From IMG/VR virus record IMGVR_UViG_3300013104_000064, positions 1 through 28,748 of that record: DNA of 28,748 nucleotides, one strand, 5' to 3'. A program made the translations under genes and the position numbers. Position 1 is the stretch's first letter; every line of letters begins with the position of its first letter. The DNA comes from a virus. The notes beneath the pieces were generated by a model. The model worked only from the letters and a program-made list of their open reading frames with translations. It was not told the DNA's origin and made no database searches. Positions 239 through 20,999 of the stretch are shown one piece after another.

Positions 239-384
239 AATGTTCGGAGCTGTACGAGGAAATGAAGGAAGCGCTCAAGTTCTTCGGTTTGCGGTTTCAC
301 GAAATGGACCAGATGGAAGTCGACGCGTACGAGGGGTATGTGATCTTCCGTTATGGTAAACGATCCATCAGCGTCAACCTATAA
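235..384 (+). CDS. small hypothetical protein (49 aa), coupled to the preceding gene
   Basis: The ATG is inside the ATGA overlap with the preceding gene. The product starts MKCSELYEEMKEALKFF and ends GKRSISVNL. It looks like a short amphipathic helix followed by a beta-rich tail; family not recognised. The TAA at 382-384 lies just past the terL stop (379-381, opposite strand), so the two genes converge with a 6-bp overlap. Support is the coupling and a natural-looking composition. No terminator is visible between the convergent genes. Confidence 0.6.
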   Translation: MKCSELYEEMKEALKFFGLRFHEMDQMEVDAYEGYVIFRYGKRSISVNL

Positions 385-1836
385 CATATCAGCCACACCG
401 ACCCGGTTGTTGTGAAGCATCTGACTGATCGCGTCACACATCGGGTCAATCTGGTCATCGTGAGCGTGCGTATCGTCAGCGGTGAACGCTTCACACTCCG
501 TAATGAAATCGTGAACCCACGGCGCATCAAGTGGGATCTTGACGTATCCGGCCTCAATGTAACCCTGGACGTCCATCACACGTGTCAGCTTGTTCGAGGC
601 TGGCCCACGTGGGATCGGGCGTACCGGGATCTTTGGCTTGATCACCTTCTGAATCTTCTGAATCAGTTCCGTACCTGACGACTTGTCCTCGACCGCCATG
701 AATCGCAGACGACCGCTGTGTGACGTTCTGTGCTTGTTCCAGAAGTCAGGGATACGCACCTCAAGCTCGTAAGCCTGGAAGCGCTCACGCAGCACGTCGA
801 GCAGGTACAGGTATCCGTCCTCACCTAACCCCCAGCACTCGGCAACCTGATAGTCGTTATGCTGCTTTGCCTTCTGCGCGGTGTCGACGAACACGGCTCG
901 CCACTTAAGCGGCGGCACGACACTGTAACGTCCGAACCATTCGCCGCGCAGGATGCCGCCGCCGAGCGGTGAGGGGCGTTGCTGCATCTGACTGGCGAAC
1001 ATGTACGAGTTCTTCGCCTTCATAGCCCTGAGCGCGTCCAGGGAGTGTTTCGAAGGCCACAATGCTGATTCGTGGTCGGTACCCTCGTCGACGATGGCGC
1101 TCAGCACCAGATGTCGGAAATTGTACTCGCTGTCTTTGAGCAGCATGCCGCAGAAATCATCCTCGTGAATCCGCTGCATGATCACAATGCACGGCGTCTT
1201 CGTGGAGTTGAAACGTGACTTGATCGTTTCGTCCCACCGACGGTTTACGGCCTTACGCATCGGATCGGAGTACGCATCGTCGGGCTTGAGCGGATCGTCG
1301 ATGATGATCGCGCCGCCGAACCCGTTGTCACCTTCGAAGTCGTCGATCTTGCCCGCGCCAAAGCCCGTGATAGGGCCGCCAGCGGACGTTGCGTAGAACA
1401 CGCCACCTTGCTCCGTCGCCCAGGCCTTCTTGCTGTCCTTGTTCGGCTTGATAGTCAGCTCGGGCCACAACTGAGCGAACTCAGCGGACTTCATAATCGT
1501 TTTGACCGTCTCGGAGTTATCGAGCGCCAGGATGTCAGCGTATGACAGGTGAATAAACTCACACTTGGCGTTCTTCACGTAGCACCACGCCACGAACATT
1601 TTCACCGCCAACTCGGTTTTCGAGTAGCGGGGCGGCATGTTGATGATTAGGTGGGTAGTGCGACCGTAGTAAACATCCATTAACGCGTCACAGATGACGT
1701 GGTGGTGTTCGCTCAGTACGAATTTGGAACCCTTGACGACCTTGAAGAAGTAGCGAACGAAGTATTCGAAACTTTCTTCACAGGCGAGTCGTAGGAAGAG
1801 GGCTTTCTCGGGTGTATCAACTTCAAAACGTTTCAT
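379..1836 (-). CDS. terL: terminase large subunit (DNA-packaging ATPase/nuclease)
   Basis: This is the motor protein that cuts concatemeric phage DNA and pumps it into proheads through the portal. At 485 aa it has the normal length. The N-terminal ATPase has a P-loop-like PPRYSKT at residues 68-74 and a Walker B strand AIIIDDP at 176-182. The C-terminal RNase H-fold nuclease shows VFVDTA (D318), AVEDKSSGTE (E383) and HDDQID (460-464), the usual acidic metal ligands. The ATG overlaps the end of the restored terS frame by 14 nt, the classic terS-terL coupling. The nearby RBS is weak, which fits re-initiation. It lies last in the packaging operon. Confidence 0.95.
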   Translation of the reverse strand: MKRFEVDTPEKALFLRLACEESFEYFVRYFFKVVKGSKFVLSEHHHVICDALMDVYYGRTTHLIINMPPRYSKTELAVKMFVAWCYVKNAKCEFIHLSYADILALDNSETVKTIMKSAEFAQLWPELTIKPNKDSKKAWATEQGGVFYATSAGGPITGFGAGKIDDFEGDNGFGGAIIIDDPLKPDDAYSDPMRKAVNRRWDETIKSRFNSTKTPCIVIMQRIHEDDFCGMLLKDSEYNFRHLVLSAIVDEGTDHESALWPSKHSLDALRAMKAKNSYMFASQMQQRPSPLGGGILRGEWFGRYSVVPPLKWRAVFVDTAQKAKQHNDYQVAECWGLGEDGYLYLLDVLRERFQAYELEVRIPDFWNKHRTSHSGRLRFMAVEDKSSGTELIQKIQKVIKPKIPVRPIPRGPASNKLTRVMDVQGYIEAGYVKIPLDAPWVHDFITECEAFTADDTHAHDDQIDPMCDAISQMLHNNRVGVADML

Positions 1837-2385
1837 TGAACGCTTTCTTAAAATCGATAACTTGTTGAGGTGTTACGTTTGTTGCGATGGCGCCAGTAAC
1901 TTCAACTTGCTGAGGTTTGTTCCAACCCAACATATCGGCAAGTTGTTTGGCAGCAGCACGACGATCAGCGGGACCAGTTAATTTATAACGGACTTCGCCG
2001 TCAGCTTGATCACGACTTCAGAAATATGTTTAAAGTTTTCCGGTTTGTTCAGGTCTTGCAACTTCAAATCGACAGTTGCTTGTTCGTGCAACATGGCGAT
2101 GATCTTGTCACGGTCAGCGTTAACTTTCGCAAGTCGATCAGTCTGTTCGTTCTTAAACATTTTGACGAACGAGTCAACCTTCGGATTACTGAGGAGTTCG
2201 CTAACACATGTGTCGGCTGTCACATCGCTCTTCGCCTTGCCGCCAGCCCGACGATACGCCTCACGCTGCGACAACCCTTCCAGTACGCCCAACGCCACAC
2301 CTTGCTGCAAACGAGTCAGGGCGTGGAATGCCGAAACCTGTTCGTCGCTCAGTTCGATGGTGCGGTTGTCGATGGTGATCAGCAT
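1823..2385 (-). CDS. terS: terminase small subunit, interrupted by a -1 frameshift
   Basis: The small terminase recognises the packaging site and feeds DNA to TerL. The first frame (ATG 2385) has a terminase-type HTH region, with LTRLQQGVALGVLEG then LSQREAYRRAGG at residues 28-49, and stops at 1978 after VIKLTAKSVIN. The -1 frame continues from about 2005 to a TGA at 1825-1823. It reads DGEVRYKLTGPADRRAAAK, then QLADMLGWNKPQQVEVTG, a typical TerS C-terminus. Joined, they give about 187 aa and overlap terL by 14 nt. The -1 frame has a TGA near 2019, so the shift must lie within about 2017-1981. I see no classical slippery heptamer, so a one-base sequence error, a true mutation or an unusual programmed shift are all possible. 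Confidence 0.85.
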
Positions 2386-2415
2386 TGCGGAAAGCCTTGC
2401 GGTTGAGGTTACACG

Positions 2416-2444
2416 ATTGTCGCCGTCGCTGACAGGCGAGTCAA
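2416..2444 (-). promoter_or_regulatory. promoter for the terS-terL operon
   Basis: On the minus strand TTGACT (2444-2439) is followed after exactly 17 nt by GACAAT (2421-2416), placing a start about 25 nt before the terS ATG. The -35 is embedded in TGACTCGCCTGTCA, a degenerate version of the palindrome TGACG-N4-CGTCA seen at the other promoters in this window. Predicted from sequence only. Confidence 0.6.
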
Positions 2445-2458
2445 TCCCGATGGGTCGT

Positions 2459-2738
2459 TACCCCGATAATCTGATCCGGGGTATTTATCGGGGTATGCTG
2501 TAAGTCCTTGTATTTACTACTAATATATATTTTATACCCCGATACCCTTAATAAATAATATTAGTATAGAAACTGTATAGGTATATGATAATACATATCA
2601 TTAACATATATATCGTATGGCTGGAGAGTGAGATCGATACGGGGTATTCAGGTAAATCCCCTACAGCCCACGGAATACGTGGCATCCAGCGTACCCCGGA
2701 TAGCGTGTGAGTTCCGGGGTACGGGGTATACCGGGGTA
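2459..2738. repeat. nine dispersed copies of a 7-bp CGGGGTA/TACCCCG repeat
   Basis: TACCCCG on the plus strand starts at 2459, 2535 and 2692. CGGGGTA starts at 2477, 2489, 2640, 2715, 2722 and 2732. Several are extended (ATCGGGGTAT, ATACCCCGATA), and the last three form a near-tandem cluster. Chance would give far fewer than one copy in 280 bp. Such arrays are typical of protein-binding iterons; the binding protein is unknown (TerS or a replication initiator are the obvious candidates). Confidence 0.85.
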
Positions 2739-2770
2739 CGGTTTTAAGCGAAAATAAATTATCTCGGGCT

Positions 2771-2936
2771 TCAGTAATTTATTTATAATTTAATTTGGTT
2801 ACTTTTTGACCAGAAAATGATCATTTTTAAATTACTGAAATTATCTCTGTCGACTTTTAATCATTTTTGGTTGACATCTGATCAAATTTTGATCGATTTA
2901 TAATTATCTCGACGTCAGTTAATTTTCAGTAATTTA
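2771..2936. repeat. AT-rich block with three copies of TCAGTAATTTA
   Basis: The 11-mer TCAGTAATTTA occurs directly at 2771-2781 and 2926-2936, and inverted at 2828-2838. A second motif, AATTATCTC, recurs near 2757, 2840 and 2902, twice extended to AATTATCTCG. TGATCA-type palindromes (around 2819 and 2879) are also present. The block is strikingly AT-rich compared with its surroundings, as in DNA-unwinding elements or regulatory arrays. Confidence 0.75.
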
Positions 2937-2978
2937 ATTTTCAACCGATGCCGGAATCACGGCATCCCCTCCAGGCGT

Positions 2979-3000
2979 AAAAAAACCCGCCTAAGCGGGT
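2979..3000 (-). terminator. intrinsic terminator whose loop contains the stop codon of the gene it ends
   Basis: On the minus strand the stem ACCCGC / GCGGGT closes a TTAG loop and is followed by seven T. The TAG stop (2993-2991) of the HTH gene is in the loop, so gene end and terminator coincide. It ends the minus-strand operon that starts at the promoter near 4880. Confidence 0.9.
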
Positions 3001-3452
3001 CGTTTCATCGCGTAAATCTTCTCCCATGTAGGCCATCCATCCGTCACATTCGGTCCCCTGGCTTCGATCCGCGTAGGTCGTTTTCGAGGTCGACCGTGTA
3101 CGGAGTTCATCGCCACTTTGATCCCACGCGCCATCGCCACACGCTTCAGCACGTGACCCTCGCTGTACCCTATGACCCTCGCCGCATATCCCCAGCTGCG
3201 ACCCTCAGCAGCCATCCTGTGCAGCGCCTGACCCATAGTTTCACCGGTGTCCCTTAGATATGCAGTAGCACGTATAAAAGGTTCGAAGGGATCTTTAGTT
3301 GGGTTATTTGCCAACATGTCGCAGAAACTTTGCGGGTGATAACCTATTGCACGTGCTGTATCAAAACGTGTAAGTCCCTGGTCTGCAAAGTCCGCAATAA
3401 GTTGCCAGAAGTTCACGCCCCACCGTGTTTCAACTTGACGTTTACCGGCCAT
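2991..3452 (-). CDS. putative DNA-binding protein with two HTH-like segments (153 aa)
   Basis: Two segments look like helix-turn-helix units: LTRFDTARAIGYHPQSFCDM (residues 28-47) and RSWGYAARVIGYSEGHVLKR (84-103). A basic stretch (GRPRKRPTRIEAR) follows, and the protein ends in a Trp-containing tail. This suggests a regulator or a site-binding protein. It is the last gene of its operon, and its start overlaps the previous stop (TAATG). It could be the protein that reads one of the repeat arrays immediately downstream, but that is only inference from proximity. No specific family assigned. Confidence 0.75.
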   Translation of the reverse strand: MAGKRQVETRWGVNFWQLIADFADQGLTRFDTARAIGYHPQSFCDMLANNPTKDPFEPFIRATAYLRDTGETMGQALHRMAAEGRSWGYAARVIGYSEGHVLKRVAMARGIKVAMNSVHGRPRKRPTRIEARGPNVTDGWPTWEKIYAMKRPA

Positions 3453-7752: not shown

Positions 7753-10080
7753 CTATCCTACCACCGCCTGACTCAACGCCGCAATCGCCACGGGGTCACC
7801 CTGCGCCGCCTCGTAATGACGTACCACTTCGGCACCCCCGACCAGATTGGCGTGGATATGACCCTGGCGGATGTACAACCGTGGCTTACCGTTATCCATC
7901 AGGATGTGGTTATTGACCCGACCATCCTTCAACGCCGGGTGCCAGTCGTAGCCGATGGACTTCATCAAGTCGCGACGTTTACGTGGTGCAATGGCACGAC
8001 CCATACGTAAACGTTCGATGAGTGTATCGAGTGCCATGCTCGATACCCAACCGCCCGCGAATCCCTGGCGACCTTCCTCGATGCACTCCATTACTTCTTG
8101 TTCAACTGCGCCTAAGCTCGCCTCGACTGCTTCGGCAGTAGTACTGGTATGGGGTGCGCGCTGGCACTCAGTAGTGGGGTTGAATGCTGCCGGGATTTCA
8201 TAATGATTGAGGTAATGGGCGACCTTTGCATACCCACCATTGCGCAACCACTCATATAGATCCGGGAAGTAGTTACCGCTCATCCCATCACGAATCAAAT
8301 CAGTCGCGTCCTGTTGCGCTGTATAGAACACAGCGAAGCGGCGATCTGACAGGGTTTTCTTGATTGCAGCTTTGTGGTTTGAATTAAACATGAAGTTACA
8401 GACGAGATCATGCATGGTCTGATCTTGCTGCATGGCCCGACGTGCAAGACGTGTGCCAGTTATCATTGGTTTCAAAATTTCAATAATTTCGGTGCGATGA
8501 TCCGGAACATTGATGTCCTCGACTGCAATGAAGAGCTTGTCGAAGAGCCACGCGTTGAACTTTTCCGAGATTTCAGCAGCAGCGGGGAAGTGGGTATAGC
8601 GTTGCCCAATTGCGTACGCCACGCAGCGGGTCAGGAGAGTTTTCCCGTTCCCTTCTGTCCCCTGGAGCAAAACGGTCCACTGAATTTTGTACCCCTTGTG
8701 TTGAAGGATACAGGCCATGTAAGACAAGACAATGGTGCGATCCCGCTCGTTCGGTAGCAGTTTCGCCAGATGGTTGAGGAACGGCGACACGTCACCAGCT
8801 TCGGTATGGATATTTACGGGGACGTATGTATTCACCATGCGAAAACCTTCTTCCTCGATGATCGATCCAGGTGGCGCAGAAGGTCGGAAAATATGCGAGT
8901 CGACTTTGGGAAACGATACGCATTGGTTCTCGGTAGACGCCTCGAAAGCCTTCTTCGTGGTCTTCTCACCCGTGTCATCCAGACTGAAGACGAAACCGCC
9001 CATCAGCGCATTGAATTGTTCCGACTTCAACATCGCACCGTTCGGCATGAACACACGGTGGGCGTCGGCAACATATACACAACCAGCAAAATGCTCGATC
9101 AATTGGCTCGCGGGCAGAAACTGGAATCCGGATCGCATGAACGGAATGTGGGCAACCGACGCCTCTGGCGTAGGCGCAATCTCGATAGGTTTGCCAACGC
9201 TGTACCAAGTTGTCTGACGCGCCACAGCGCCACAAATTGTCCGGTGGATATAAGACTTGTGCTTGTCCCATTTGGGCCTGACCATTGCGCTCATACGCAT
9301 CAGACGTTCGATCCTGTCGTGCTGTCCGCCGCACCAGAAGGCGAGACGCTGCGCCAGGGATGCGTCAGCAGATGAACCATCGTAACCACCGTCATCGGAA
9401 GGCCACGATTCGACCAAGGCATCTATGTTTCGCTCCCACAGGTCCTTGAACGATGCTTTACCGCCGAAAATCGACATCACGCCCTCGCTTGTCAGGGCTT
9501 TCTCAATGAGTCGCGCGTCGTCCTGAATTGGGCAACTGTCAGGATGAGGCACAGTCGTCCAGGTGGTCGGATTGACAGTGATCTCAGCGGGGAAGTATTG
9601 CGCAACGGTCTGGTTAAAAGCGACATCACTCGGGTGCATCATATCGCCGGATGCACCCGTCCCCAGGCAGATGAAACGATCATCGGTATAACATTCAATG
9701 TTGAGCGGGATGTTTTTGCACCCGTGGTCAGGCATGTCACCGACCACCACACCGAATATGTGGAGACCGGTGCCGCTATTGGACGTTTCGGTCATGCAAC
9801 CAGCGAATCGAGTACATAGTTCGATTGCCAGCGGAGACCAAGTTTGGTCAGGTAATAAGCACGCGTCCAAATCAATACAGAAGCGCCCGTCACCGTTCAA
9901 GATCGTAGCAGGGCGATACTCGGTACCTAATAGTGCAGCACGGTCAACCGCGTCAGCGTAGGACATGCGATCAGCAACGTGAAGACTGACAACTTTACCT
10001 GATAGGTCGCATGGCATTTTCTCAGTTTTACCCGGACGGTTCGTCGACGGGGTGGTCTTGCAAACGATAAAGTTATTCAT
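7753..10080 (-). CDS. primase-polymerase / SF3 helicase (NrS-1 polymerase-like, VapE/D5-type)
   Basis: A 775-aa replication protein. The N-terminal archaeo-eukaryotic primase-type domain has IDLD (D70, D72), SNSGTGLHIFG (100-110) and IECYTDDRFICLTG-like IECY...RFICLG (128-140). A central helical region, about 213-287 (DLWERN, then LAFWCGGQ and ERLMRMS), matches the helix-bundle seen in NrS-1-type enzymes. The C-terminal superfamily 3 helicase has Walker A GTEGNGKT (474-481), Walker B KLFIAVED (515-522) and a sensor NFMFNSNHK (562-570). It should prime and unwind at the phage fork. An in-frame start at 10128 exists, but ATG 10080 overlaps the upstream stop (ATGA). Family membership is confident; polymerase activity is not established. 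Confidence 0.92.
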   Translation of the reverse strand: MNNFIVCKTTPSTNRPGKTEKMPCDLSGKVVSLHVADRMSYADAVDRAALLGTEYRPATILNGDGRFCIDLDACLLPDQTWSPLAIELCTRFAGCMTETSNSGTGLHIFGVVVGDMPDHGCKNIPLNIECYTDDRFICLGTGASGDMMHPSDVAFNQTVAQYFPAEITVNPTTWTTVPHPDSCPIQDDARLIEKALTSEGVMSIFGGKASFKDLWERNIDALVESWPSDDGGYDGSSADASLAQRLAFWCGGQHDRIERLMRMSAMVRPKWDKHKSYIHRTICGAVARQTTWYSVGKPIEIAPTPEASVAHIPFMRSGFQFLPASQLIEHFAGCVYVADAHRVFMPNGAMLKSEQFNALMGGFVFSLDDTGEKTTKKAFEASTENQCVSFPKVDSHIFRPSAPPGSIIEEEGFRMVNTYVPVNIHTEAGDVSPFLNHLAKLLPNERDRTIVLSYMACILQHKGYKIQWTVLLQGTEGNGKTLLTRCVAYAIGQRYTHFPAAAEISEKFNAWLFDKLFIAVEDINVPDHRTEIIEILKPMITGTRLARRAMQQDQTMHDLVCNFMFNSNHKAAIKKTLSDRRFAVFYTAQQDATDLIRDGMSGNYFPDLYEWLRNGGYAKVAHYLNHYEIPAAFNPTTECQRAPHTSTTAEAVEASLGAVEQEVMECIEEGRQGFAGGWVSSMALDTLIERLRMGRAIAPRKRRDLMKSIGYDWHPALKDGRVNNHILMDNGKPRLYIRQGHIHANLVGGAEVVRHYEAAQGDPVAIAALSQAVVG

Positions 10081-10991
10081 TTTAGGAGTTCCAGCCAAGT
10101 AGTGATGTCCGGAGACATCTGACGCCATTCGGTCGCACCGTCGAATCCTGTCAGCCCTACTGATGGGAACTGGTTATGGAAAAGACGTTCGAGCATGCGA
10201 GGCACCGCGCCATCTTCACAATGGATTTCGCGATGAACTGAGAATTTGAAGGGTGTTACGCGGGCGAGTTTTTGACGACGTTTAACATGTCGATTACTGA
10301 TACCAATCTTGACCATCGTCTCGCATTCTGACAGTAGCGCGTAGAGTGTCCCAGGGCGACCGGTGTCGTACCCAGTCCACGAGCAGGCGGCACAACGAGT
10401 ACCTTTGTCGATGAAATTACCAATGTTTGCGGACCAGTCACCATGTAACGAGCAATTCACGATCACCTTGCTACGTTGGTCTTGATAATGTGTTTCCCAT
10501 CTGACAAAAGAGTAATGGGTGTCGATACAGAGGTCTTGCACCTGAGCTTCGCGTTCAACCTGTGAATATTTATAATGACCACCGCAGCCGTCACATCCTG
10601 TACCGCGTAGGAAATTTGACACGGATACTTCCCACGACCCATGAGTCGCGCAACTCACAACGAGTCGGGTGTTTTTGTTCTTGTACTCACTACACCATTT
10701 CACGAATGTCAGATTTTTTTCGGTGGTGAGTACCTGGATACGGTCCTCAACCTCTTTAATGTTTTTTCGACGATTGGTCGAATACGCCTCATTGCGACAG
10801 CCGATGCAACGTGAACCTTTTATTAGATTGTTGAACAGTGCGGACCAATCACCGTGTGCGGCACACCGCATTACAGCTTTTGTCGAACTATTTTTATACT
10901 CACCGACCCAACCCACAAATTCGTAACCGTCAGCTAAAGCGAGGGCAGACAACTGCGCCTCCCGATCTGACTTCGAGATTTTTCTAGGCAT
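10077..10991 (-). CDS. triple zinc-finger / GIY-YIG (T5orf172-like) nuclease, putative homing endonuclease
   Basis: Three tandem repeats (about residues 24-65, 95-136, 161-203) each have an FV.W pattern, C-x3-HG-x-W, an aromatic/Asn-rich turn and a final C-x2-C, so each probably binds one zinc. The C-terminal ~90 residues fit the GIY-YIG/T5orf172 fold: TLYALL (215-220), VKIGIS (227-232), basic HVKRRQKL, and LERLFHNQF with E268 and N273. This arrangement fits free-standing homing or site-specific DNA nucleases. It has GGGGAG about 9 nt before its ATG and couples by ATGA to the primase gene. Its base composition looks more AT-rich than its neighbours, consistent with acquisition. Confidence 0.8.
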   Translation of the reverse strand: MPRKISKSDREAQLSALALADGYEFVGWVGEYKNSSTKAVMRCAAHGDWSALFNNLIKGSRCIGCRNEAYSTNRRKNIKEVEDRIQVLTTEKNLTFVKWCSEYKNKNTRLVVSCATHGSWEVSVSNFLRGTGCDGCGGHYKYSQVEREAQVQDLCIDTHYSFVRWETHYQDQRSKVIVNCSLHGDWSANIGNFIDKGTRCAACSWTGYDTGRPGTLYALLSECETMVKIGISNRHVKRRQKLARVTPFKFSVHREIHCEDGAVPRMLERLFHNQFPSVGLTGFDGATEWRQMSPDITTWLELLK

Positions 10992-11021: not shown

Positions 11022-11306
11022 CTACAGAAGTGTTTGCAGCGCTCGAACTCGCAACGGCTTAGGCGCCTTCATGACTGTCTGGTCACCCTCGGCCATCCCC
11101 GCCGCCAGGATGTCGAGCTGTTCACTGTCGATGGCGCGACGCATGATGGCAGCCTTGAGGTTTTCCATCGTTGCGTAGTGGAGGTTCACAGTACCACCCG
11201 CCACACCCGCACGCTCTGCAATTGCGTCTCTACGAATACCGCGATACCCGCACTCGACAGCCAGGGTGAACGCTGCGTCGAGGATTTTGTCTTTCAAATG
11301 ACTCAT
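11022..11306 (-). CDS. TetR-type N-terminal HTH protein (94 aa)
   Basis: Residues 1-55 match the TetR N-terminal DNA-binding domain: KDKILDAAFTLAVECGYRGI, then DAIAERAGVAGGTVNLHYAT and ENLKAAIMRRAI. The usual ligand-binding domain (100+ residues) is missing; only a ~35-residue tail follows. A stand-alone HTH like this may be a compact phage regulator. Its own promoter region carries a near-match to the recurring palindrome, so autoregulation is possible but untested. It lies upstream of the zinc-finger/GIY-YIG gene. Confidence 0.75.
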   Translation of the reverse strand: MSHLKDKILDAAFTLAVECGYRGIRRDAIAERAGVAGGTVNLHYATMENLKAAIMRRAIDSEQLDILAAGMAEGDQTVMKAPKPLRVRALQTLL

Positions 11307-17206: not shown

Positions 17207-18043
17207 ATGACTGTTAAATACGCACCGTTCAAAGCACGTCTGGTTATGGGCTCCCCGTTCGAACTGAAAGTGACCGACCACGAGGGTAAACCTCAGCCGG
17301 ACGAGAACAAACATCACTGGTTTATGGCGTTCGCTGTACCGAAGGGCCCAACCTGGGACGCGATCTGGGCAACCATGTACAACGAGGCAGCGGGCGATTC
17401 GAAGTGCACCGCCGCGCTCTGTGGTCAGGCCGGTTTCAACTGGAAAATCGAAGACTGTGACGCCCCGGAAGACCCGACCAAACTCGGCACCGAATCGCGT
17501 CCAGCCGGTCACTGGCTGATCAAGTTCACACGCTACAAGGCGATGGGTCCGGTCACGCTGATCGACGGCAACAAACAACCGATCATCAACAAATCCGCTG
17601 TGAAAAAAGGCGACTGGTTCTGGGTCGTCGCATCGACCAAGTTCAACGGTGCCGCAACCGTGAAGACCAACGCCGGTATGTATCAGAACGTCGAAGGTCT
17701 GATGTTCGCTGAAGCCGGTATCGAGATCGTCAGCGAGGGCGCATTCAACGCTGACACAGAGTTCGCCGGTATCCAGGGCGGTGTGGTCGTAAACGGTGGT
17801 ACGAGTCAGGAAGGTGCACCGGTCGCAGCGAAGCCGCCAGTCACCCATACCCCACCACCTGTCGTTGCCGCCGCTGTTACACCGCCGCCACCGGCTCACG
17901 ATCTGGTCACCCCACCGCCTGTCGTGGTCCCGGTCGTACAGAAGTTCGAGTACAACGGTAACGTGCTGACCAAGACCGAATGGCTCGCAATGCCGGGTTG
18001 GACCGAATCAATGGTCGACCAGCACTGCAAACTCGTCGCGTAA
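17207..18043 (+). CDS. DUF2815-family ssDNA-binding-like protein (278 aa)
   Basis: Residues 1-180 fit the DUF2815 family (VKYAPFKARLVMGSPFEL at the N-terminus, RPAGHWLIKFTRYK and KKGDWFWVVASTKFNG in the middle), an OB-fold-like group found between DUF2800 nucleases and polymerases in phages and thought to bind ssDNA. The last ~95 residues are a Pro/Val-rich linker and a short terminal domain (EYNGNVLTKTEWLAM to the end). The linker resembles that of the 14724 protein. Good RBS (AAGGG) before the ATG, own internal promoter and a terminator after it, suggesting high expression. Confidence 0.85.
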   Translation: MTVKYAPFKARLVMGSPFELKVTDHEGKPQPDENKHHWFMAFAVPKGPTWDAIWATMYNEAAGDSKCTAALCGQAGFNWKIEDCDAPEDPTKLGTESRPAGHWLIKFTRYKAMGPVTLIDGNKQPIINKSAVKKGDWFWVVASTKFNGAATVKTNAGMYQNVEGLMFAEAGIEIVSEGAFNADTEFAGIQGGVVVNGGTSQEGAPVAAKPPVTHTPPPVVAAAVTPPPPAHDLVTPPPVVVPVVQKFEYNGNVLTKTEWLAMPGWTESMVDQHCKLVA

Positions 18044-18857: not shown

Positions 18858-20999
18858 ATGCGCCTGCTATCCCGCTGCGAGCCTATCAACGGTTGCGGCA
18901 AGACATACCCCGCTGACCTCGACAAATGCCCCCACTGTGGTACGCCTGAAGCGTTCAGCGTTGCCGAACCCGTGGATTCAAGGGATTGGGGCTGGGATCT
19001 CGAAACGTATCCCAACGTGATCACAGCGTCGTTTATCCACGCAGCGACCGGACTTGAGGTCGTGTTCGAGATTTCCGACCGTCGCAATCAAGTCGCCGAG
19101 CTGATCGAGTTCGTGCTGGGCCTGGGTCGAAGCAAAGCACGTGGCATCGGTTATAACAACCTGGGGTTTGACTACCCTATCATTCACTGGCTCGTCGCAA
19201 ACCCTAACGCCACAGCGCCACAGATATACGCCCACGCTATGAAAATCCTCAAGGCGAGCGATGCCGACCGGTTTGGTATGACGATCTGGGAAAGCGATCA
19301 CGTCTTCGAACAACTTGACCCGATGAAAATCTGTCACTTCGATAACAACAACAAGCGCACCAGCCTCAAGGCGCTTGAGATCGTCATGCGCTCGCGTAAC
19401 GTGATCGACCTACCGTTCCCCGTCGGCATCCCACTACGTGACGACCAGATCGATGAGTTGATCGCGTACAACAAACATGACGTTCGCGAAACCCTGAAGT
19501 TCTACATTCGGATTCTCCCCGAGGTTCATCTGCGTGAGGCGCTGTCGAAGCGTTACGAAACTCGCATGATGAACATGAGCAACACCAAGATCGGCGCGAC
19601 GATTCTCACCAAGGAGATGGAAGCGTCCGGCATCGTGTGCTTCGACCGTGGTCCTGGCGGCAAGCATCCCCGCCAAACGTACCGCGACAGTATCAACCTC
19701 GGCGACGTGATTTTCCCGTATGTCAAGTTCGAACGCCCCGAATTCATTCAAGTCGTCGAACAGTTCAAAGCGAAAACGCTACGTCGAACCGACATGGGTG
19801 AAGAGGTGAAGACGAAAGGTGCGTTCGCCAACATCGAGGCGAACGTCGACGGGTTCGACTATGTGTTTGGTCTCGGGGGAATCCACGGGTCGATCGTTTC
19901 ACAGATCGTGAGGTCTGATGACGAATACATGATCATCGACGCCGATGTGACGTCGTTCTATCCGAAAATGGCCATCGTCAATCGCCTGTACCCGGCACAC
20001 CTGGGTGAAGCGTACTGCGATAGTTACAACGGTGTGTTTCTTCAGCGCGCAACCTTCGCAAAGGGTACACCCGAAAACGCCGCGCTCAAGGAATCGCTGA
20101 ACGCGTCCTACGGCAACTCGAACAATAAATTCAGTTGCCTATTCGACCCGTATTACACAATGGCTACCACCATCAATGGTCAACTGTCACTGTGTATGCT
20201 CGCCGAACAGCTCGTCAAGATTCCGGACATGACGATGATTCAGTGCAACACCGACGGCCTCACCGTGCGCATCCCACGGTCATTCGAGGCGCATTTCTAC
20301 AGCGTGTGCAAGTGGTGGGAAGGTGTGACGCAACTGAATCTCGAGTACGCACTCTATTCGCGAATGATTATCAGAGACGTAAATTCGTATATCGCGGAGT
20401 ACGAGGGCGGTAAGCTCAAGCGCAAAGGCGCCTACGAATACAACACCTTGTGGCACCAAGACCCGTCGGCACAGGTGGTCGCCCGGGCGGCTGAAGCGGC
20501 GTTGGTGCGCGGCGAATCGGTACGTGAGTTCATCGCCAACCACCGCGACCCGTTCGATTTCATGTGTCGTGCAAAGGTGCCACGGTCGAACTCGCTACAT
20601 CTGCGCTTCAAGGATTGGGGTATCGATCAACAATTGCAGGGGACAACCCTTTACTTCGTCAGCCGCAACGGTGGAACACTCGTGAAGGTCGCACCACCGA
20701 CGGGCGAGCCTGGGACGTGGAATCGTAAGGCGAAGTTGACCGATTCGAACTTCAACGCTGTGATGCGTGAGATTGCAGGTCAACCCGGTGACCTCGACAG
20801 CGCTGGGACGCCGTGGGACGCACGAATCCACACGGGCAATCGCAGCAAGCATGATACCCGCGAAACCGGTATATGCAGCGGCTGGCGCGTCACAGAGTGC
20901 GCCGATGCGCGTCACTTCGACTGGTCGGATCTGAATTACGAGTGGTACATCGTCGAGGCTGAAAAGCTGGTGAATCCGCTGTTGACGAGTTCGTCATAA
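18858..20999 (+). CDS. family B DNA polymerase with N-terminal zinc ribbon (713 aa)
   Basis: Replicative DNA polymerase. Exonuclease motifs are WDLET (D47, E49), GYNNLGFDYPII (D105) and YNKHD (Y204, D208). Polymerase motif A is DVTSFYP (363-369), motif B KESLNASYG (411-419) and motif C CNTDG (463-467), where the usual DTD is NTD. The N-terminus has a zinc-ribbon-like C7/C13 and CPHC (24-27), uncommon in this family. The C-terminus (about 645-690) carries a GTPWDARIHTG module shared with the 14724 protein. At 713 aa it is compact. GGGAG precedes the ATG. Confidence 0.93.
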   Translation: MRLLSRCEPINGCGKTYPADLDKCPHCGTPEAFSVAEPVDSRDWGWDLETYPNVITASFIHAATGLEVVFEISDRRNQVAELIEFVLGLGRSKARGIGYNNLGFDYPIIHWLVANPNATAPQIYAHAMKILKASDADRFGMTIWESDHVFEQLDPMKICHFDNNNKRTSLKALEIVMRSRNVIDLPFPVGIPLRDDQIDELIAYNKHDVRETLKFYIRILPEVHLREALSKRYETRMMNMSNTKIGATILTKEMEASGIVCFDRGPGGKHPRQTYRDSINLGDVIFPYVKFERPEFIQVVEQFKAKTLRRTDMGEEVKTKGAFANIEANVDGFDYVFGLGGIHGSIVSQIVRSDDEYMIIDADVTSFYPKMAIVNRLYPAHLGEAYCDSYNGVFLQRATFAKGTPENAALKESLNASYGNSNNKFSCLFDPYYTMATTINGQLSLCMLAEQLVKIPDMTMIQCNTDGLTVRIPRSFEAHFYSVCKWWEGVTQLNLEYALYSRMIIRDVNSYIAEYEGGKLKRKGAYEYNTLWHQDPSAQVVARAAEAALVRGESVREFIANHRDPFDFMCRAKVPRSNSLHLRFKDWGIDQQLQGTTLYFVSRNGGTLVKVAPPTGEPGTWNRKAKLTDSNFNAVMREIAGQPGDLDSAGTPWDARIHTGNRSKHDTRETGICSGWRVTECADARHFDWSDLNYEWYIVEAEKLVNPLLTSSS

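Follow-up and report, generated by a model that had tools for sequence, protein, structure and literature searches.

What is the function of a dense array of short repeats that lies immediately in front of the terminase genes of a phage? The array is located in the window, i.e. the entire 28,748-nt stretch of viral DNA from IMG/VR analysed here, whose TerL (terL, 379-1836, minus strand) is 81% identical to TerL of the Klebsiella phages KpV79 and IME346; as judged from its sequence, the stretch represents part of the genome of a Jedunavirus-like myovirus. The initial annotation described nine copies of the 7-mer CGGGGTA/TACCCCG, in both orientations, in 280 non-coding bases upstream of terS, and suggested that they represent either the iterons of an origin or a TerS recognition site. 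An exact count agrees with the description: boxes start at positions 2459(-), 2477(+), 2489(+), 2535(-), 2640(+), 2692(-), 2715(+), 2722(+) and 2732(+), the stretch is non-coding, and its edge is 74 nt from the start of terS (1978-2385, minus strand), the first gene of a late operon. We refer to the array (2459-2738, in the direction of the terS operon on the minus strand) and its homologues in relatives as element A1. An intrinsic terminator (2984-3001, minus strand) sets the gene upstream of A1 apart from the element.

Outside the array, the other 28.5 kb of the contig contain just three further boxes, and the box density in the array is ~300 times that in the rest of the contig. The 12 boxes of the whole window compare with a shuffle mean of 2.78, and 12 was reached in 0 of 100 shuffles. 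Other 7-mers are present in at most five copies per 280 nt anywhere in the contig, and when the local region was dinucleotide-shuffled, 6 of 2000 shuffles contained some 7-mer in at least nine copies. Moreover, in relatives that carry two elements, GGGGTA density in the elements is 47- to 347-fold that elsewhere in the same genomes. In total, the shuffles, the 7-mer counts and the density contrast in genomes rule out that the array arose by chance or from low-complexity sequence. A structured RNA at the array was dismissed, since no Rfam family was found in window positions 1800-3100.

Read toward terS, the element consists of a distal four-box cluster, an isolated box, an AT-rich core, a box pair, a proximal box and a promoter. 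The distal cluster (2692-2738) comprises a minus-strand box (2692-2698) and a near-tandem plus-strand trio (2715-2738), and contains an imperfect 20-nt inverted repeat. The trio had been noted previously, and is real; however, it is located at the promoter-distal end of the array and not beside terS. The isolated middle box (2640-2646, plus strand) is followed by the AT-rich core (2518-2566), in which the inverted arms TACTAATAT/ATATTAGTA (2518-2526 and 2558-2566) enclose AAGGGTAT-CGGGGTAT, with a box (2535-2541) and the half-box TACCCTT (2543-2549). This double GGGTA core is the best-kept part of the element across genomes. The proximal box pair (2477-2495, plus strand; boxes 2477-2483 and 2489-2495) has the opposite orientation to the promoter-proximal box and reads TACCCCG-n5/6-TACCCCG in relatives. 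The promoter-proximal box itself (2459-2465, minus strand) lies 37 nt from the -10 hexamer of a predicted sigma70-type late promoter of the terS operon (TTGACT-17-GACAAT, 2416-2444, minus strand), which centres the box at ~-53. The box is directional rather than palindromic, and among 105 boxes from ten genomes A/T is preferred before it and T after it. Taken together, the elements show an enrichment of perfect IHF sites (12 compared to 1.0 expected); the window contains no exact IHF site, and we rejected an IHF site as a universal part of the element, as these sites are restricted to some lineages.

The AT-rich block that had been reported to adjoin the array is present (2745-2945), and the array additionally has an internal AT-rich part at ~2495-2635. 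Within the block at 2745-2945, which is distal to the array, a segment of ~70-120 bp is inverted in the relatives G004, G002, L006, L007, G008 and G001 and not inverted in L004; the joints coincide with short inverted words, e.g. CAGTAATTT/AAATTACTG. By sequence, the segment resembles a cassette that is shuffled or inverts, for which no recombinase was identified.

The array is kept in relatives. L004-L007 retain eight to nine boxes upstream of terS, and members of Jedunavirus have fewer exact boxes in an element that is still recognisably homologous. In complete relatives, identified by a primase search and by reading of whole genomes, the element is present twice in direct orientation, i.e. 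A1 before terS-terL and A2 before the neck/tail operon, so that the same box stands at more than one late operon per phage. A2 is located ~13-20 kb beyond A1, upstream of a neck/tail-completion gene homologous to JD001 gp13. Paired direct copies were detected by self-BLAST in 16 genomes (JD001, KpV79 and 14 contigs; in contig G001 the position of A1 upstream of terS is not visible), and both copies are visible on inspection in PEAT2 and BUCT_49532. In most two-copy genomes, the two densest GGGGTA windows are A1 and A2. The contig of the window ends before the expected position of A2, and A2 in this phage is a prediction. The conservation and the duplication lend good support to the earlier view that the repeats are probably protein-binding sites. 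Distal to A2 in the clade of the window, at 48705-48930 in G004 and at the same place in G001, G002, G006 and G008, GTCAC/GTGAC words are slightly enriched, with four to six copies compared to ~1 expected.

Among the 34 elements placed in a tree, A1 and A2 from the same genome are sisters in G003, G006, G009, G010, G012, G013, G014, G015 and G017, and the copies of JD001 and KpV79 cluster together. In the clade to which the window belongs, the A1 copies group apart from the A2 copies, with the exception of G006. The G006 copies at 35460-35748 and 50050-50338 (L115) share 95% identity, and each belongs to the A2 type; in sister phages, A1 and A2 have stayed distinct. By sequence, a recent gene conversion over ~14 kb is the likely source of the G006 pair. 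Altogether, the likeness of A1 and A2 points to repeated homogenisation by recombination, or to selection by one shared binding protein, or to both.

The position of the last box relative to the predicted promoter is constrained. For 14 representative elements, we took the last box and the best -10 hexamer within the next 60 nt. The best -10 was found at 25-28 nt in nine elements and at 36-38 nt, one helical turn further, in two. With spacing classes that were picked after seeing the data, and with promoters predicted from approximate -10 frequencies, 11/14 elements fit either class compared to a mean of 1.8 and a maximum of eight in 5000 shuffles. The best -10 scores had a mean of 6.8 compared to 4.2 in shuffles. 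A second scoring scheme gave the same picture and added G009_A2, G003_A1 and G011; G003_A2, G013_A1 and the G015 copies fitted poorly. Taking the -10 hexamer as -12 to -7, a gap of 25 nt centres the box at ~-41. The gap is 37 nt in the window and 26 nt, one helical turn less, in its close relatives G008 and L006. Most element promoters are predicted to have an extended -10 and no clear -35; the predicted promoter in the window has a good -35 (TTGACT) and a weak -10 (GACAAT), and it is possible that it would be active without an activator. Within the same genome, the spacers of the A1 and A2 promoters have just 3-8 of 20 bases in common. Because the spacers are unrelated in sequence, we reject that the fixed spacing is simply the copying of one promoter.

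The element does not follow the terminase. The array persists across two TerS types that are 27% identical over 88 residues and in genomes in which TerL has been replaced and no homologue of the window TerL was detected; moreover, the gene adjoining the element varies while the element stays. Its constant companion is a replication block whose genes include phrog_93 (endonuclease-like) and those for a DEAD/ResIII helicase, a small TetR-HTH protein and an NrS-1-like primase-polymerase. In the window, the latter is a primase-polymerase/helicase (HBD and DUF5906; 7753-10128, minus strand), and a separate DNA polymerase (phrog_1252, 18858-20999) is encoded alongside it. Acinetobacter phage Scuro and contig G011 have one element each together with structural genes that look different, and no homologues of the tested structural genes were found in G011. 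As read by eye, Scuro retains the distal half and the core, and a clear box-plus-promoter end is absent. G016, whose TerL shows 74% identity and whose primase is alike in the N-terminal part alone, has the TetR-HTH protein and no array. With G016 as the one near-complete array-negative genome in the comparison, the association of the element with the replication block is suggestive. Upstream of terS, G016 instead has a single copy of a large imperfect inverted repeat of other sequence (17463-17748; L148), possibly a different control system.

Every array genome examined encodes a TetR_N-type protein. In the window, this is a 94-aa TetR-type HTH protein without a ligand/dimerisation domain (11022-11306, minus strand), which adjoins the primase and is conserved. 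The protein has a TetR_N match above the Pfam cut-off, its family profile matches the TetR DNA-binding domains of solved structures, and its model is all helical with a mean pLDDT of 93; in Foldseek, with modest E-values, the top rank was the DNA-bound TetR-family protein EilR. The homologues of G005, G011 and Scuro (143-166 aa; loci L123 near 9000-9260, L134:7074-7568 and L152:21427-21924) appear to contain two tandem TetR-like units. A monomeric or tandem HTH protein would suit directional boxes, and the 94-aa protein is our first candidate for a binder of CGGGGTA. The HTH-like neighbour gene at 2991-3452 is an unlikely source of the binder, as among the compared genomes it is present just in G002.

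On the basis of sequence comparison, we slightly favour the interpretation that the array is a late-promoter control region, one of two per genome, that is bound by a phage protein. We infer that transcription does start at the predicted promoters, that the bound protein would activate and not repress them, and that the binder is probably the small TetR-HTH protein. According to this model, a phage-encoded sequence-specific protein would bind the directional CGGGGTA boxes; bound to the proximal box, whose centre at ~-41 (or a helical turn higher) places it at the -35 region or slightly upstream, it would contact the sigma70 RNA polymerase of the host at a -10 that is often extended. The other boxes and the bendable AT-rich core, with its IHF site in several relatives, would load and position the protein. 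With A1 in front of terS-terL-portal-capsid and A2 in front of neck-sheath-tail, one regulator could fire both virion operons together. Counting against late-promoter control is that the upstream part of the element reaches ~-330, which is longer than most class II promoters need.

Several other interpretations have to be weighed against late-promoter control. The initial annotation's alternative of a TerS recognition site (pac/cos), which would mark the start of packaging, would be in keeping with the location of the array next to terS, and the repeated boxes with IHF sites resemble lambda cosB. However, the same genomes carry the element before the neck operon too, giving two sites per genome; the array does not co-vary with TerS and is found where no homologue of the window TerL was detected; and deposited records begin at differing points, that of KpV79 inside A1. 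In addition, the relative IME346 was reported to have no fixed termini (PMC9007800). We consider a packaging site very unlikely and, given the two copies, the independence from the terminase and the ends of IME346, reject packaging as the main role. In the self-BLAST genomes, many contigs have 127-bp end overlaps, which suggest circular assemblies and likewise speak against a packaging site. More improbable still is that the element has no regulatory function and is a repeat for homologous recombination or a mobile repeat: the two direct copies and the gene conversion that left the G006 copies so alike are what such a repeat would give, but boxes and spacing are conserved while the intervening DNA and the flanking genes change, and every copy precedes a late operon. 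If the boxes were instead repressor operators that keep the late promoters off early in infection, a box near -41 could occlude polymerase equally well, the good -35 of the window promoter would be accounted for, and TetR-family proteins are usually repressors. Against this, spacings of 25-28 and 36-38 nt put the boxes on one face of the helix and many boxes are located upstream, as is the pattern for contact activators, and most of the promoters have an extended -10 in place of a clear -35. Repression is an unlikely reading of the element.

An iteron origin, the other alternative raised initially, is doubtful in our estimation. Here, A1 and A2 would be a pair of origins, or an origin and a crr-like accessory site as in P4, to which the primase-polymerase/helicase or the TetR-HTH protein binds and at which the AT-rich core melts. 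The repeats and the AT-rich segment that this proposal invoked are indeed present, and array, core and IHF sites together resemble an iteron origin; however, the strongest constraint that we observed is the phasing to the promoter. The element accompanies the helicase-TetR-primase module even in Scuro and G011, where homologues of the tested structural genes were not detected, and the primase, encoded 5 kb from the array, has the NrS-1 helix-bundle domain. NrS-1 primase recognises TTTGGTTA (PMC8718748), which is present at 2794-2801 in the AT-rich block beside the array and at one other place in the window (6909). The core boxes of G007 read TTGGTTA, and the alpha protein of P4 binds origin repeats (PMC4234260). 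GC skew, which the initial annotation suggested as a check, was analysed in 12 genomes, and its extremes are not consistently on the element: the minimum of the detrended skew is at most 0.4 kb from A2 in two genomes, G010 and G007, in G012 and G013 it lies 2.5-2.8 kb beyond A2, but in 8/12 genomes it is 35-39 kb from A1 and away from both copies. Moreover, an origin does not need the strict orientation and the promoter phasing at both copies, and it would be unusual to find two near-identical origins separated by 13-20 kb. The element could have a second role in replication. A version that joins both functions is unlikely: the single or tandem TetR-HTH protein would load the boxes, the same sites would serve as origins for the primase-polymerase and as switches of the virion operons, coupling replication to late transcription, and gene conversion would keep the copies alike.

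In the literature searched, the timing of late genes in Jedunavirus-type Klebsiella phages appears undescribed, and several of these phages are therapy candidates. If it controls late promoters, the element offers a specific switch together with a candidate regulator. It is also usable as a marker of late operons in metagenomic contigs, and is an example of two distant control regions that evolve in concert.

Activator-dependent late or middle phage promoters are known from P2 (Ogr), Mu (C and Mor) and phi29 (p4), and class II activators such as CRP bind at -41.5. As in these phage systems, a short box is fixed just upstream of a sigma70 promoter, here a predicted one that in most elements, though not in the window, lacks a clear -35, and the box recurs before several late promoters within a single phage. 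By contrast, as many as ten boxes, in both orientations, are spread across ~300 bp in the element described here, which also has an AT-rich core; the entire element is duplicated and homogenised, and the regulator is a candidate. To our knowledge, CGGGGTA is not the box of P2 Ogr, Mu C or Mor, phi29 p4 or the class II systems. Lambda cosB, which has R sites with IHF, similarly has repeated boxes near terS, and some relatives of the window phage share the IHF sites; here, however, there is a second copy far from the terminase genes and a relative reported to lack fixed ends. P4 has crr as a second site besides ori. In common with ori/crr and with iteron origins, there are two separated repeat-rich sites, AT-rich DNA and a linked primase-helicase; unlike in P4, both sites here have a fixed orientation and phase relative to a predicted late promoter, and the primase is of the archaeo-eukaryotic NrS-1 type. 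Finally, in pRN1, whose origin is a stem-loop without iterons, the orf56/orf904 operon likewise encodes a small DNA-binding regulator beside an archaeo-eukaryotic primase-polymerase (PMC4234260).
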